Positions 1 to 25,395 of a stretch of 64,000 nucleotides of DNA are shown piece by piece. The DNA lies in the IMG/VR virus record IMGVR_UViG_3300020468_000005, positions 1 to 64,000 of that record; one strand, written 5' to 3'. Each line of letters starts with the position of its first letter. Positions within the stretch are counted from its first letter, which is position 1. A program made the translations under genes and the position numbers. The stretch is from a virus. A model generated the notes under the pieces. That model was not told where the DNA came from. It made no database searches and was given only the letters and a program-made list of their open reading frames with translations.

Positions 1-1473
1 CTAAGAAGACCAAGTATCCTGAGATCTGGTAACCATACATTTGAATATGTTGGTTATGGTCCTGGTAACTATTCAACTGGTCTACCTTCAGTACAAAACA
101 GAGTTCTAACTGAGCAAGAGATACTTATATCACAGTCACAAAAAGAAAATGGTGGTATCGCATTCTACTCTGGACTTAACAGTAATGGTGACTTGTTTAT
201 TGGTAACACTAAGATTAGTTCTGTTACTGGTGAGGAAGCAAACCTTGATACTCCTACCTTATCAATCGTTGGTGAAACTACAAACTTACGTCCTACATTT
301 GATGAGATCATTGTTAGAGATAAAATCACTGTTGAATCTAATACACTTGAAACTGAGGTTAGAGGTAAGTTAAGAGTACTTAACGAAGCATCTATTGAAA
401 ATAAGTTAACTGTTGATGATATTACTATTGGTGGTACAAACGAATCATCTAAGAACATTGACGTATTTGGATCAGCTCCAACTGCATCTGATGTTGGTGA
501 CGTTGGTGACTGGAAATTACTAGAGAGTATTACCAGAGGAGGGCACTTAGGTTTCTATTACACTGGTGGTGAGTGGGTCAAATTTGGATTAACTGATACT
601 GGTAACATGTCAGTTACTGGTGGTAGTGGTACTGGTGATAGTACAGGTGATTTAGAATTTAACAACGGACTTGGAGTAAAAATTAATGGCACTGGTACAT
701 TCCAAATAGGTACAGGTGATTTAACTACAGGTGGTAACATCATAGGTGGTAACAATATTACTCTTACTGGTGATATTCAAGTAAATGGCGGTGACATCAC
801 AACGAACCAGTCAACGTTTAATATCGTAAATAACACAGCAACAACAATTAATTTTGGTGGTGCAGGTACTAATATTACTATTGGTGCTACTACTGGTACT
901 ACAACCATAAGAAACGACTTGTCTTTGACAGGTGGTTTAACAATCGGTAATAACCTCACAGTTGGTTCATCTAATGTAATCTCCGATGCAAGTGGAACTG
1001 CTACATTAAAAAATATTGATGCTATAGATGCTACTACTGAAGCTACTATAGAATCTGCAATCGACACACTTGGCAACTTAACTTCAGCCTCATCCTTGAG
1101 CACAGTTGGCACAATCACTACTGGTACATGGAACGCAACTACTATCAGTAGGAGCAAGGGTGGAACTGGTATAGATACATCAACTCTCTCTAATGGACAG
1201 TTACTTATTGGTTCTGCTAGTGGATTTGCAAAAGCAACGTTGGGTAATTCAACAGGTATCAGTATCACTAATGGATCTAACTCTATTACTATAAACAATA
1301 CTGGTGTTACATCATTCGCTAATCCTTCAGGATTCTATGATGGATCTGTTAACTCAACAACTGGTGGAGTCACATTCACTATTGGTACAGGATCAAATGC
1401 ATATGGTAGAAGATATATAAGTCAAAGTTCACCTTCGGGTGGTTCAAATGGAGATATTTGGTATAGGTATTAA
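1..1473 (+). CDS. Long tail fibre protein, C-terminal part (5' end outside window)
   Basis: The frame is open from the first base to a TAA at 1471-1473, so this is the last 490 residues of a longer protein. It begins with a segment containing HTFEYVGYGPGNYSTGLP and then FYSGLNSNGDLFIGN, which I associate with the middle of long cyanophage fibre/structural proteins. A Gly/Thr/Asn-rich repetitive region follows, with many TTGG, TGT and GGTG strings typical of trimeric beta-structured fibre shafts. The C-terminus ends in GDIWYRY. It probably forms a distal tail fibre or host-contact appendage. It sits directly upstream of a glycine-rich adhesin, 2 nt away. The gene that starts at 57678 is the same general type, so the genome carries at least two such long fibres. 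Fibre role is confident; the exact fibre is unknown. Confidence 0.8.
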   Translation, partial: LRRPSILRSGNHTFEYVGYGPGNYSTGLPSVQNRVLTEQEILISQSQKENGGIAFYSGLNSNGDLFIGNTKISSVTGEEANLDTPTLSIVGETTNLRPTFDEIIVRDKITVESNTLETEVRGKLRVLNEASIENKLTVDDITIGGTNESSKNIDVFGSAPTASDVGDVGDWKLLESITRGGHLGFYYTGGEWVKFGLTDTGNMSVTGGSGTGDSTGDLEFNNGLGVKINGTGTFQIGTGDLTTGGNIIGGNNITLTGDIQVNGGDITTNQSTFNIVNNTATTINFGGAGTNITIGATTGTTTIRNDLSLTGGLTIGNNLTVGSSNVISDASGTATLKNIDAIDATTEATIESAIDTLGNLTSASSLSTVGTITTGTWNATTISRSKGGTGIDTSTLSNGQLLIGSASGFAKATLGNSTGISITNGSNSITINNTGVTSFANPSGFYDGSVNSTTGGVTFTIGTGSNAYGRRYISQSSPSGGSNGDIWYRY

Positions 1474-20158: not shown

Positions 20159-20166
20159 AGCACTTG

Positions 20167-20187
20167 CCCCCCCTTGGGGGGTTTTTT
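20167..20187 (+). terminator. Rho-independent terminator
   Basis: A run of seven C (20167-20173), TT, six G (20176-20181) and six T (20182-20187). The stem is very GC-rich and followed by a good T-tract. It ends the 19833-20158 transcript. Confidence 0.9.
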
Positions 20188-20290: not shown

Positions 20291-20470
20291 ATGAAAACAT
20301 TCGACGTAGAGACCACAGTAACATATAAGCAGTGGATCAGAGTATCAGCAGAAGATGAGTATGCTGCCCAGAAACGTGTCAACGATATGGCATGGGACGT
20401 AACTGCGATACAGTATCAGGTTATGGAGAAGGCAGAATCCACAGGAACGGTTAGAGACTGCCCAGAGTGA
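20291..20470 (+). CDS. Small hypothetical protein coupled to PPTase
   Basis: 59 residues, alternating strand and helix (FDVETTVTYKQWIRVSAEDEYAAQKRVNDM). The RVSAEDEYAAQKRV segment resembles a DpnD/PcfM-type small protein of mobile elements; this is only a resemblance. Its stop overlaps the GTG start of the phosphopantetheinyl transferase by 4 bp, so the two are expressed together. Confidence 0.6.
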   Translation: MKTFDVETTVTYKQWIRVSAEDEYAAQKRVNDMAWDVTAIQYQVMEKAESTGTVRDCPE

Positions 20471-20913
20471 AACCCATATACTCCGATGAAGTAGCGAGCG
20501 TTTATCTGACCTCAGATGTAAAACTCGCCCTAAGAATGTTTCTCTGCAGAGTTCCTCTGAGTTGCAAAGAACCTGTGAAAATGTATTGGAATAAATCAGA
20601 CACTAACCATTGTACAGTAGTTGCAGTGGGTTTCAAAGAAGTCGGAGTTGATATAGAGTACATGAGATATAGAAGGTTTGAAGATATTTCAAGACGTTAC
20701 TTCCATAAGGATGAGATTACTGATAACATGCATGTCTTCTATGATCTATGGACTCAGAAGGAAGCATACACCAAGTGGAAGAAAGGAAAGATAGCAAAGT
20801 ACATGTCTCAGAAGATAGACAAGGATATATCTCAACTAGTTCCACAGTCGAGGTATAGTATGATAGAACTAGATGGGTTACCTTACAACATTAGAGGGTA
20901 TCTATGTTATTGA
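20467..20913 (+). CDS. 4'-phosphopantetheinyl transferase, short Sfp type
   Basis: 148 residues from a GTG that overlaps the preceding stop. The two family signatures are present in order: GVDIEYMRYRRFEDISRRYF at residues 60-79, with D62 and E64 as Mg2+ ligands, and LWTQKEAYTKWKKG at 94-107, with E99 as the third ligand and K103 as the catalytic lysine. The region before (NHCTVVAVGFKEV) corresponds to the ISHS strand but the Ser-His is not conserved. Length is between AcpS (about 120) and Sfp (about 220), and the N-terminal pseudo-domain is shortened. It would move phosphopantetheine from CoA to an acyl or peptidyl carrier protein. No carrier is seen here, so the target is probably a host protein. 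Confidence 0.85.
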   Translation: MKPIYSDEVASVYLTSDVKLALRMFLCRVPLSCKEPVKMYWNKSDTNHCTVVAVGFKEVGVDIEYMRYRRFEDISRRYFHKDEITDNMHVFYDLWTQKEAYTKWKKGKIAKYMSQKIDKDISQLVPQSRYSMIELDGLPYNIRGYLCY

Positions 20914-20938
20914 CAATGTGTTGATACTCTGATATAAT
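20910..20938 (+). promoter_or_regulatory. Perfect-consensus sigma70 promoter
   Basis: TTGACA (20910-20915), 17 nt, TATAAT (20933-20938): both hexamers and the spacing are the exact consensus. The -35 overlaps the stop codon of the PPTase gene. Drives the gene at 20967. Confidence 0.85.
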
Positions 20939-20966: not shown

Positions 20967-21143
20967 ATGCAATACGTATTATTCAACGAACATTTCGATC
21001 AAGTAGGTACGTATGACAGTATCTACGATCTTCGTAAGTTTCTTTGTGATAGGAAGTATGAGATAGATTGTGATAAGGATATAGGGGATACGTTTGATTA
21101 CATCAAGCATATCAAGTGGCATTTCGATATTAAACAACAATAG
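20967..21143 (+). CDS. Small hypothetical protein behind consensus promoter
   Basis: 58 residues: QYVLFNEHFDQVGTYDSIYDLRKFLCDRKYEID followed by a charged His-containing end. It is the first gene after the strongest promoter in the window, so probably made at high level early in infection. No family recognised. Confidence 0.6.
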   Translation: MQYVLFNEHFDQVGTYDSIYDLRKFLCDRKYEIDCDKDIGDTFDYIKHIKWHFDIKQQ

Positions 21144-21842: not shown

Positions 21843-22045
21843 GCAAATACGAATTCGAGTACGATTCATGGTTTAGAGACGACATACCAAAAGCACAATA
21901 TGGAAGTCTTCAGTGTTGGATAGAGAATGAGAAGACACAACCATGGACGACCGCATACGATATGACCATTCATAGTATAATGTATAATATAGCAATAAAG
22001 AACGGATTACTAACAGAAGCATATGGCAGTAACCATCACTCCTGA
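21839..22045 (+). CDS. Small hypothetical protein before spike module
   Basis: 68 residues, acidic and Trp/Tyr-rich (YEFEYDSWFRDDIPKAQYGSLQCW). It overlaps the next gene, a probable virion protein, by 23 bp. No family recognised. Confidence 0.6.
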   Translation: MSKYEFEYDSWFRDDIPKAQYGSLQCWIENEKTQPWTTAYDMTIHSIMYNIAIKNGLLTEAYGSNHHS

Positions 22046-22523
22046 TGGAACAGCAACGTTCCTTACGGATTTAACTAGACCTAACTTTGCAATGAACCAG
22101 ACAGTGAGTGCTTCTTGTTCGGTTGCTTCACCTAATGTATGTAATGTAACTAATGTTACTGCAACTGTAGCTGGAACACAACCTGACCTAGTAATTACAC
22201 CTGGTAGTACATCTGTATCAATTACTGGTTCAATAGAAGATCCTTTTGTAGACGAATTTAAGTATGTGGAGCAAGGAGAATCAGATAAGACATCTACCCC
22301 TGTGACAGTTCAGCGACTGGTTAACATGCCCCCAGATAAGGTAATGTTTGACCTCAATCAGGACAATACATCGTACACAACTGAAACTTTCACCGTAACG
22401 GTACAATGGGAGAGTGGTCCTGTAGGGAACCTGACTGCCCAAGCACCCGCATCCTTCACACTTGAATTAAAGATATATAATGAGTGGGAAGGTATACGTT
22501 CCTTTATTTCAGATTATTATTAA
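22023..22523 (+). CDS. Probable virion protein, Ig-like
   Basis: 166 residues with alternating short strands and Thr/Val-rich segments (NVTNVTATVAG, VITPGSTSVSITGS, TFTVTVQWESG), which suggest a beta-sandwich. It ends with YNEWEGIRSFISDYY. It lies next to the PAAR spike-tip gene and the baseplate cluster, so it is probably a spike or baseplate part. No exact family recognised. Confidence 0.65.
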   Translation: MAVTITPDGTATFLTDLTRPNFAMNQTVSASCSVASPNVCNVTNVTATVAGTQPDLVITPGSTSVSITGSIEDPFVDEFKYVEQGESDKTSTPVTVQRLVNMPPDKVMFDLNQDNTSYTTETFTVTVQWESGPVGNLTAQAPASFTLELKIYNEWEGIRSFISDYY

Positions 22524-22524
22524 A

Positions 22525-22806
22525 ATGCCAGCAGTAACACGAGTAGGAGACGCAGATGTAGCCCATTGTTCTGGAATGTCCAGAGCACAGGGTTCAGGTA
22601 ACGTCTTCTGTAATGGTATTCCTATATCCAGACAAGGAGATAAGAACACCACACACCTATTACCAGGCTCACCGTGCCCTCCTCACAGTGCAGCCATAGG
22701 AAGTGGTAGTAGCACAGTCTTTGTAAATGGCAAAGGATGTGGTAGAGTAGGAGATGCAACATGTACAAGTGTTGCAGCAGGTTCATCAAACGTATTCGCA
22801 GGTTAA
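22525..22806 (+). CDS. PAAR-domain spike tip protein (T4 gp5.4-like)
   Basis: 93 residues from ATG 22525. Proline/glycine repeats with PAVTRVGDADVAHCSG, ISRQGDKNTTHLLPGSPCPPH and VFVNGKGCGRVGDATC are the classic PAAR pattern, with His and Cys placed to bind a metal at the tip (H14, H44, H54 and Cys residues are candidates). The protein caps the central spike of the baseplate and pierces the host outer membrane. In T4 the matching gene (5.4) also lies just before the wedge genes. Confidence 0.9.
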   Translation: MPAVTRVGDADVAHCSGMSRAQGSGNVFCNGIPISRQGDKNTTHLLPGSPCPPHSAAIGSGSSTVFVNGKGCGRVGDATCTSVAAGSSNVFAG

Positions 22807-22809
22807 ATT

Positions 22810-22950
22810 ATGGCAACTAGATATGCAATGGGTCTTCCAACAATCGAAGCAAGACCAAAGAAAACAAGACAAGGTAGAGGACAGCATACTAAGTATAGTG
22901 CTACCTCTCGTAACAAAGCAAGAAAGAGGTATCGTGGCCAAGGCAAATAG
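22810..22950 (+). CDS. Small very basic protein
   Basis: 46 residues, very rich in Arg and Lys (ARPKKTRQGRGQHTKYSATSRNKARKRYRGQGK). I associate this with a small basic protein next to baseplate genes in cyanophages. The charge suggests nucleic-acid binding or a tail-tube association. It overlaps the next gene. Confidence 0.65.
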   Translation: MATRYAMGLPTIEARPKKTRQGRGQHTKYSATSRNKARKRYRGQGK

Positions 22951-23092
22951 AATCGTAGACGGAAAAAGGAACGCAAATATACCCGTAGATATGTCTGATC
23001 ACTTCTACGATCATGGCAATGAATACTGCAGATATTTAATTACTGATCCTAGATCTGATAGGAAGGTAAAGAATGTTAAAAAAGAAGTATAA
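22934..23092 (+). CDS. Small protein before gp25 (GTG start)
   Basis: 52 residues if it begins at GTG 22934, which has AGAGG 5 nt upstream; ATG 22991 would give 33 residues. It contains DHFYDHGNEYCRYLITDPRSDRKVKNVKKEV. The last codons overlap the late promoter before gp25. No family recognised. Confidence 0.5.
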   Translation: MAKANRIVDGKRNANIPVDMSDHFYDHGNEYCRYLITDPRSDRKVKNVKKEV

Positions 23093-23095
23093 ATA
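23088..23095 (+). promoter_or_regulatory. T4-type late promoter before gp25
   Basis: TATAAATA at 23088-23095, 27 nt before the gp25 start. The motif matches the T4 late-promoter octamer recognised by the phage sigma factor gp55 with the sliding clamp. It presumably starts the baseplate wedge transcript. Confidence 0.75.
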
Positions 23096-23122
23096 TATCT
23101 GAAGGTAAACTTTGTCATATAA

Positions 23123-23512
23123 ATGGCGATTAAATCAAAGTCGTTTAGAGACTTTTCGTTGACATTTGAAAAGAATGCAGTAACAAACGATGTTTTGTCA
23201 CTGAAGAACGAAGCAGCCATAAAGGAATCTGTAAGAAATATCATATTGTATAATTTTTACGAGAAACCTTTTGATCCTAAATTTGGCGGTAATATCATTG
23301 GACTATTATTTGAGAATGCTAGTCCCTCATTACAGACAGACTTACAGGATAGAATTGCAGATACAATTAACATTTACGAACCAAGGGTTGTTCATTTAGA
23401 AACTAAAGTTAAATGGACAGAGGATCGTAACAACTTAGATGTATCAATTCGTTATGTAATCTTAGGTATACCTCCTACAGTAGATTCACTCGAGCTTGCA
23501 TTGAAACCATAA
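23123..23512 (+). CDS. 25: Baseplate wedge subunit gp25
   Basis: 129 residues, the usual length (T4 gp25 is 132). NILYNFYEKPFDPKFGG and the late WTEDRNNLDVSIRYVI segment are characteristic of the gp25/GpW-type lysozyme-like fold. It joins gp6 and the sheath to the wedge and helps start sheath assembly. Its last base is the first base of the gp6 ATG. Confidence 0.9.
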   Translation: MAIKSKSFRDFSLTFEKNAVTNDVLSLKNEAAIKESVRNIILYNFYEKPFDPKFGGNIIGLLFENASPSLQTDLQDRIADTINIYEPRVVHLETKVKWTEDRNNLDVSIRYVILGIPPTVDSLELALKP

Positions 23513-25395
23513 TGTCATTTCAACAGGTAAATGCCTTAGAATTTAACGAAATCAAGGCACAAATTAAAGATTATCTAAAATCACAATCACAGTTTAGCGA
23601 TTATGACTTTGAAGGATCGTCTATGACGGTGCTTTTAGATACTCTTGCATACAATACTTACTATACAGCGGTTAATGCTAACCTTGCAGTCAATGAAGGG
23701 TTCCTAGAAACGGCAGTTTTGCGTGAAAATGTCGTAAAACTAGCAAGGATGCTTGGTTATACACCTCGTTCTGCACGTTCTAGTAAGTGTGTTGTTAATA
23801 TTGCAGTACAAACACAGGTTACAACTAACGCACAAGGCGTAATTACCAAAGGATATCCTACTAGAATTACTTTACAGAAAGGATTGGTAGTTAATTTTAC
23901 AGGTTTAGATAATAATAACTTTGTTTTTTCTATTGGACAGGACGTAATTCAGACTGTGGATAGCGGAACAGGAATTGCAACGTTTTCTAATACTGAATTA
24001 TTTGAAGGAAATTTCCTTACAGACACATTTGTACGTAATACTTCTGAAAGACAACGTTTTATTTTAACAAATGATCGAGCAGATACCTCTACTTTACGAG
24101 TTTTAGTAACTTCTGGAACTGTTACAGAGCGTTATTTGCAAGCAACAGACATTACAAAGATAGATTCTACATCAAAAGTCTTCTTTTTGGAAGAATCTGA
24201 GTATGGAAGACCCGAAATTATGTTCGGAGACGGTATTGTTGGTAGAGATTTGTTAAATGGAGACGTAGTTAGTGCTACTTACACCACTTCTAGTGGTTCT
24301 GGAGCGAATGGATTGCTCCAATTTGAAAATATTGGAACATTTATCAACGATGAAGCTCAATCCGTGACCTCTGGTATAACAATTACGCTAGTTGAGCGTC
24401 CAGAAGGCGGTAAAGATGCAGAAACTACGGAAGCAATCAAGTTTTCAGCTCCAAAATTCTATTCTGCGTTTGGTAGAGCAGTCTCAACACAGGATTATGA
24501 AGCAATTATTCCAAATATTTACCCAAATGTAGCTTCAATCGCTTGTTATGGTGGTGAAGAAGCGGAACCTCCTGAATTTGGTAAGGTATTTTTAGCGATT
24601 AAACCTAAAAATGCAGATAAATTATCACTTTCCGAAAAAAATGTTGTATTAAAGAAGCTCAGAGAGTATTCTGTAGCAGCAGTTCAACCTTCAATCATTG
24701 ATCCGTCCATTTTATACATTGATATTGATAGTTTTGTGTACTATAACCCCAATATTACACGGAAAGAATCAGATGTAATCAAAAATTCCGTACTTGCCAC
24801 CTTAGTTGCACTCAATACTGGATCTGAATTTAATAAATTTGGTGGAAAGTTCAAATATTCTAAGCTTCAGGGTATAATTGATAGTGCAGATACTTCAATT
24901 ACTTCAAATATCACTCGTCTCAAGATGAGAAAGAACGTTATAGTGACTCTGAACGCACGAGTGAACTATAAAATATGTTACGGTAACCGCATTAACCAAG
25001 GAACGTCCACACAACCTACTGTTTCCTCTTCAGGATTTGCTATTTCTGGTGATACAGTTAATACTTATTTCCTCAATGATGATGGTGCAGGTTTGTTGAG
25101 ACTTTACTACATTAAGGGAAGTGGTGAAAAAGAATACATTGGAGGTTCTTGGGGTACTGTTGATTATTCTATGGGAGAGATCGTGATTAACGATTTGGTG
25201 ATTACATCAACAATTGCTTCTGGTAATATACTACAACTTAGTGCAATTCCAGAATCTAATGACCTTGTTTCTTTGCGTGAAACCTATTTGACATTAGGTA
25301 TAGATAATACAACTGTTAATGTTGTAGAAGACACTATCAGTAGTGGTTCAAATCTTTCTGGTACGGGAGTTATACCAGAGTCCAGTTATAGTTAA
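23512..25395 (+). CDS. 6: Baseplate wedge subunit gp6
   Basis: 627 residues (T4 gp6 is 660). N-terminal VNALEFNEIKAQIKDYLKSQ with FEGSSMTVLLDTLAYNTYY and ETAVLRENVVKLARMLGYTPRS are typical of gp6 (Baseplate_J-type). The middle has FGRAVSTQDYEAIIPNIYPNV. gp6 forms the inner ring of the baseplate and changes shape on contraction. It overlaps gp25 by 1 nt and ends 5 nt before the giant gene. Confidence 0.9.
   Translation: MSFQQVNALEFNEIKAQIKDYLKSQSQFSDYDFEGSSMTVLLDTLAYNTYYTAVNANLAVNEGFLETAVLRENVVKLARMLGYTPRSARSSKCVVNIAVQTQVTTNAQGVITKGYPTRITLQKGLVVNFTGLDNNNFVFSIGQDVIQTVDSGTGIATFSNTELFEGNFLTDTFVRNTSERQRFILTNDRADTSTLRVLVTSGTVTERYLQATDITKIDSTSKVFFLEESEYGRPEIMFGDGIVGRDLLNGDVVSATYTTSSGSGANGLLQFENIGTFINDEAQSVTSGITITLVERPEGGKDAETTEAIKFSAPKFYSAFGRAVSTQDYEAIIPNIYPNVASIACYGGEEAEPPEFGKVFLAIKPKNADKLSLSEKNVVLKKLREYSVAAVQPSIIDPSILYIDIDSFVYYNPNITRKESDVIKNSVLATLVALNTGSEFNKFGGKFKYSKLQGIIDSADTSITSNITRLKMRKNVIVTLNARVNYKICYGNRINQGTSTQPTVSSSGFAISGDTVNTYFLNDDGAGLLRLYYIKGSGEKEYIGGSWGTVDYSMGEIVINDLVITSTIASGNILQLSAIPESNDLVSLRETYLTLGIDNTTVNVVEDTISSGSNLSGTGVIPESSYS

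Follow-up and report, generated by a model that had tools for sequence, protein, structure and literature searches.

Does a gene of 148 codons in a cyanophage encode a working 4'-phosphopantetheinyl transferase (PPTase) and, if so, which carrier protein would it serve? The question is raised by an open reading frame (ORF) in the window, the stretch of 64,000 nucleotides analysed here (positions 1 to 64,000 of the virus record IMGVR_UViG_3300020468_000005), whose features are collected in Table 1. The reading that we prefer, and to which we give a probability of roughly 70%, is that the ORF would encode a compact working PPTase of a Eurybiavirus-like phage that loads the phage's own fatty-acid-type acyl carrier protein (ACP).

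Table 1. Location of the PPTase gene, its motifs and the surrounding features in the window
Feature	Position	Strand	Remarks
3' part of fibre gene	1..1473	+	Equivalent of PHM1_031, from residue 1029
Intrinsic-terminator-like hairpin with T run	20166..20187	+	Upstream boundary of the unit
59-aa ORF	20291..20470	+	Directly 5' of the PPTase ORF, overlaps its start by 4 bases (GTGA)
PPTase ORF	20467..20913	+	GTG start, 148 aa, compact Sfp-related 4'-phosphopantetheinyl transferase
W41-N-K-S-D-T46 motif	20587..20604	+	At the place of cellular (F)NxSH(S/T); Asp for His
G-V-D62-I-E64	20644..20658	+	Two of three Mg2+ ligands; aligns to Sfp GIDIE
W95-T-Q-K98-E99-A-Y-T-K103-W104	20749..20778	+	Third Mg2+ ligand E99, catalytic lysine K103; aligns to Sfp WSMKESFIK
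Sigma-70 promoter TTGACA-17-TATAAT	20910..20938	+	12/12 consensus bases
58-aa gene	20967..21143	+	Behind the sigma-70 promoter; PHM1_078 orthologue, 86% identity, phrog_718
Downstream neighbours	22023..25395	+	Conserved: so-called RTX protein, PAAR protein, gp25, gp6 (baseplate)

A preliminary description, made from the letters of the DNA, had proposed a PPTase with D62, E64, E99 and K103 as its Mg2+ ligands and lysine, and had suggested a Pfam search and an AlphaFold model as checks. The identity is borne out by the family profile, the catalytic residues, the predicted fold and their conservation. The ORF gives the single PF01648 (ACPS) match found by profile search in the whole 88,572-base virus record, over residues 59-109 and with 35.7 bits (E 9.6e-9), above the curated cut-off of 25 bits; it is the orthologue of PHM1_077 of phage P-HM1, which scores 34.8 bits. 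The four residues were named correctly, and together with G60, V61, W95 and K98 they are invariant across a 32-row alignment of homologues. A loss of the Mg2+ ligands in related phages, which had been set down as evidence that would count against the proposal, was found neither in those rows nor in five further phage records, more distant or additional ones, all of which also keep the catalytic lysine. The AlphaFold model, computed with 32 homologues as input, has a PPTase fold with a pLDDT of 87.3 and a pTM of 0.81, falls below a pLDDT of 50 at residues 120-128 only, and places a beta-alpha-beta-beta element before the GxDIE motif (residues 60-64). Its best 33 Foldseek matches in the PDB are all Sfp-type PPTases, with TM-scores by query of at most 0.61 and no E-value below 1e-3. 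The first match in the BFVD structure search is the orthologue of phage MED4-213, and a PDB search with a profile of the homologues finds Bacillus Sfp best (E 1.4e-5). The ORF is therefore a real, conserved PPTase and is probably enzymatically active.

The gene is maintained among phages. Relatives at 47-100% identity are encoded in 51 IMG/VR loci, and the isolated phages with a homologue are only the Prochlorococcus phages P-HM1, P-HM2 and MED4-213, at 51-52% identity. Pairwise dN/dS values lie mostly between 0.16 and 0.37 around the window sequence and between 0.07 and 0.27 in the P-HM1 group; one pair reaches 0.66, a value resting on three synonymous changes. The gene is thus under purifying selection, with dN/dS well below 1, and a pseudogene or truncation was rejected because of the low ratios and the conserved length.

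The length itself requires comment. Sfp-type enzymes have about 220-250 amino acids in two similar halves of about 110 each, and the 148-residue protein does not have this form: the stretch before the DIE region has about 56 amino acids, and the C-terminal end is shortened as well. The short N-terminal half, which the preliminary description had found odd, turns out to be a family trait; as it is common to all phage homologues examined, it does not come from a truncation peculiar to the record. Four more distant phage copies have about 165 residues and keep the same motifs. The (F)NxSH(S/T) motif of Sfp-type enzymes is also missing from the protein. At its position the phage sequences read W(N/S)KSD(T/S), once SN, so that D or N occupies the place of the histidine in 32/32 rows (two rows hold an SH further along, the motif position itself being D or N by alignment) and D occupies it in the five further records. 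Cellular PPTases, by a scripted motif count whose exceptions were read by eye, have SH in 102/115 cases and AH or TH in 10 of the 13 exceptions, so the histidine is present in about 112/115. Membership of the AcpS type was rejected, since GxDIE is not N-terminal in the phage protein and the fold search favours the Sfp type. With the nearest known structures being Sfp-type and neither the length nor the two halves of that type being present, the protein is best called an Sfp-related compact variant rather than a standard member, and it would be an unusually small one.

These changes bear on what the protein does. The whole phage family has lost the N-terminal segment and has an altered SH motif, and small size is, we infer, common in proteins that have turned into binders. 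Such traits would suit a protein with the PPTase fold that no longer carries out normal transfer and binds ACP or CoA, for instance sequestering or regulating the fatty-acid machinery of the host. A pure binder, however, would have no need of Mg2+ ligands and lysine, and these are invariant down to about 45-55% identity and in the more distant group as well, which makes a binder very unlikely. In the Sfp-CoA structure the histidine of the SH motif, together with N-terminal basic residues, contacts the 3'-phosphate of CoA. By analogy with these contacts, the histidine being replaced and the N-terminal segment absent, the CoA pocket of the phage enzyme has probably been rebuilt, and the changes could mean lower activity or a changed donor. 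An active enzyme that prefers dephospho-CoA or another pantetheine donor over CoA would agree with the replacement of the histidine by Asp or Asn throughout the phage copies and with the loss of the CoA-contacting segment. However, no account of these contacts was found in the literature searched, and other residues could stand in for those lost; a preference of this kind appears most improbable.

The PPTase gene occupies two sites in phage genomes. In 40 loci it precedes PHM1_078 and the genes for PAAR and gp25, and in 11 loci it stands behind nrdB and PHM1_175. Among the loci with at least 2 kb of sequence upstream of the RTX-named gene it is present in 11/22 and absent from the other 11/22. 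It is a mobile accessory gene and not a core one. The earlier suspicion that it is not a standard cyanophage gene holds to this extent; its presence together with an ACP gene in P-HM1 and P-HM2 had already been reported (PMC3037559).

In the window the PPTase ORF and the 59-aa ORF before it are probably co-translated. At the other end, the PPTase stop codon TGA (20911-20913) sits within the -35 box of the sigma-70 promoter, the one consensus promoter found in the window against 0.05 expected. A like promoter (TTGACA, 17-18 bases, TATAAT or TACAAT) lies at the PPTase stop in 39/40 loci of the first site. The overlap with the promoter and the hairpin upstream suggest, as far as DNA signals can tell, a small unit of early or middle type rather than a late structural gene. 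A T4-type late promoter for the PPTase gene was also considered and discarded: the window has three copies of TATAAATA, not above chance and not near the gene. Similar sigma-70 promoters also precede the RTX-named gene in several relatives that lack the PPTase gene (e.g. L316, L318 and L322). As to that neighbour, P-HM1 and PHROGs give the product of 22023-22523 the name 'RTX toxin' or 'toxin'; it has 166 amino acids and no Pfam match, and its gene adjoins those for PAAR and gp25. There seems to be no ground for calling it a toxin, and it more likely has a role in the baseplate.

Which carrier would the enzyme load? The preliminary description had seen no carrier protein nearby and had proposed a host ACP or a peptide-synthesis carrier as the target. 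The first statement is true of the record itself, in which no PF00550 match was found. The record begins, however, inside the fibre gene, downstream of the place where P-HM1 has its ACP gene four genes upstream; the order there is ACP, cpeT, a YadA-domain gene, PHM1_030 and the fibre gene, with the PPTase gene further on. The ACP gene of the window's phage would therefore fall off the left end. The closest fibre-gene relatives of the window (83-89% identity) for which 10 kb upstream is available, L359, L361, L417 and L430, all have an ACP gene. The annotated ACP of P-HM1, PHM1_027, matches PF00550 above the cut-off (E 3.1e-8) and has the features of a type II fatty-acid ACP, as it scores 70.5 bits with TIGR00517, the fatty-acid ACP model, whose cut-off is 70.45, and carries the serine of the DSL attachment motif. 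This motif, serine intact, is present in 85/85 phage ACP homologues. The PHM1_027 model is helical-bundle-like; its core has a pLDDT of about 80-86, while confidence is low for the tail at the C-terminus. In a phage ACP (L055:1402-1875) the part that matches bacterial ACPs is followed by a C-terminal tail of about 55 residues, which is charged and little conserved.

The two genes are 22-28 kb apart and do not share an operon, which speaks against the preferred reading, but they occur together in a regular although one-sided manner. Every PPTase-bearing record that reaches the ACP locus has the ACP gene (5/5: P-HM1, P-HM2, MED4-213, G323 and G324). The last two are metagenomic IMG/VR records, G323 of 200 kb, with both genes in each. 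The PPTase-bearing records checked that have no ACP match (G002, G003, G004, G326, G327, G332 and that of the window, G000) do not extend as far as the ACP locus. The three PPTase-bearing phages are the only isolates with near-full-length ACP matches (80% of the query or more). Strict pairing was rejected, because one 189-kb record (G320) contains the ACP gene and has the PPTase gene nowhere. Two other ACP-bearing records (G005 and G006) lack the PPTase gene at the baseplate site, and as fragments do not reach the second site. The case of G320 indicates that a phage ACP can apparently manage alone or be loaded by a host enzyme. As all five PPTase-bearing records have the ACP gene and the converse fails, the PPTase appears nested within the ACP-bearing phages, a distribution that fits a loader improving the phage ACP and not essential to it.

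A role mainly on the host's AcpP, with the phage ACP loaded incidentally or by a host enzyme, has to be weighed against this. That phage ACPs exist without the PPTase speaks for such a role, as does the resemblance of the phage ACP to fatty-acid ACPs, owing to which an enzyme fitting one may fit the other. The phage ACP in 5/5 of the records covering its locus speaks against it, and so do the PPTases of the hosts. Most of the cyanobacteria with genomes of 1.6-1.7 Mb, which are probably Prochlorococcus, have no PF01648 match at E 1e-3. Among the 12 listed genomes of this size without a match, 11 have a diverged PPTase of about 220 amino acids, found by the phage profile (E 3e-8 to 2e-5) or by a profile of its own kind (loci L258-L265 and L267-L277, probably from Prochlorococcus and Synechococcus). 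Calls of absence based on Pfam would hence be wrong in small-genome cyanobacteria, as the model misses the diverged enzyme. Having a PPTase of its own, the host is in principle not short of one, and its ACP would already be loaded in nearly all the cyanobacteria of 1.6-1.7 Mb sampled. A host ACP is thus unlikely to be the main target, and the earlier proposal of a host or peptide-synthesis carrier probably missed it, since P-HM1, P-HM2, MED4-213 and the two metagenomic records with the PPTase carry their own ACP with DSL motif. One genome (G179:C1:826483-827083; L278-L281) has a second PPTase copy in pieces with many stop codons and an intact PPTase elsewhere; the fragmented copy is a decayed duplicate.

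The host enzymes also bear on origin. In the tree all phage PPTases form one clade (100/99) beside the picocyanobacterial clade and not nested inside it, so a recent theft from the host is not backed. The branches are long and deep support is weak, and the deeper placement of the phage clade is unsafe because long branches meet there. A tryptophan after the catalytic lysine, present in 18/19 host and 16/16 phage sequences, was dropped as a common trait of host and phage, as the more distant phage copies are without it.

According to the reading that we prefer, the virus would be a Eurybiavirus-like T4-type cyanophage infecting Prochlorococcus or a near relative. Its PPTase, in which D62, E64 and E99 would bind Mg2+ and K103 would assist, would move 4'-phosphopantetheine from CoA to the DSL serine of the phage's own fatty-acid-type ACP, and holo-ACP would be made early or midway in infection. 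The simplest guess is that the loaded ACP feeds acyl chains into type II fatty-acid or lipid enzymes of the host. No phage enzyme using the loaded ACP was found: 55 proteins of P-HM1, most of them unannotated, were searched with Pfam, which returned no ketosynthase, acyltransferase or thioesterase, and did find oxygenases, glycine dehydrogenase and CpeT. Extra variable genes lie between ACP and cpeT in three loci (L140 and L144, from G005 and G006, and L344, from P-HM2); among the genes of this interval are an oxygenase-like ORF and one for a conserved protein of about 225 amino acids, which may act with the ACP. More speculatively, the minimal enzyme, with half of its N-terminal domain gone and SH changed to SD, may be a dedicated orthogonal loader of its own ACP, its donor preference possibly changed, and the pair a host-independent viral acyl-carrier system; we regard this as a tentative and somewhat doubtful extension.

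The ACP genes of phages are counted among the auxiliary metabolic genes. A loading enzyme in the same genomes would imply that at least some of them are meant as holo-carriers and not decoys, and an acyl-carrier kit of two parts seems to come with the virus itself, PPTase and ACP being both present in close relatives. As annotation the pairing was already known, since a single line of a genome paper names an ACP 'and its synthetase' in P-HM1 and P-HM2 (Sullivan et al. 2010; PMC3037559), whose PPTase orthologues are already annotated as such. The present analysis adds to this the compact architecture, the family-wide change of SH to SD, the distribution nested relative to the ACP, the occurrence at two genome sites and the overlap with the promoter. 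The open-access literature searched gave no functional study of a phage PPTase-ACP pair, no activity data for any member of the family, and nothing useful on phage PPTases or on the SH motif of Sfp.

The nearest known system is that of P-HM1 and P-HM2, with the PPTase PHM1_077 or ACPS (T4-GC500) and the ACP PHM1_027 (T4-GC457). The window's PPTase is orthologous to the former (51% identity), equally compact and with the same motif changes, and its gene likewise precedes the RTX-named, PAAR, gp25 and gp6 genes. Differences from P-HM1 are the GTG start, a different ORF (59 aa) in front of the gene and a shorter N-terminal loop, and the window's record, unlike the genomes of P-HM1 and P-HM2 with their ACP, is incomplete on the ACP side. 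The Sfp-like PPTases of picocyanobacterial hosts (about 220 amino acids) have a weak but real profile similarity to the phage enzyme and differ in their full N-terminal half and SH motif. AcpS-type holo-ACP synthases share with it the superfamily and the short length, about 120 amino acids. Their DIE, however, is near residue 8, whereas in the phage protein it is at about residue 60 and follows an Sfp-like element at the N-terminus, and in the PDB fold search an AcpS-type match (a fungal FAS PPT domain) has an E-value of 4.5 against 1e-3 for the Sfp type. Bacillus subtilis Sfp (PDB 1qr0, 4mrt), among the top fold matches, shares GxDIE and WxxKExxxK with the phage enzyme; it has about 228 amino acids rather than 148, about 105 rather than about 56 of them before DIE, SH where the phage enzyme has SD, and a longer C-terminus.
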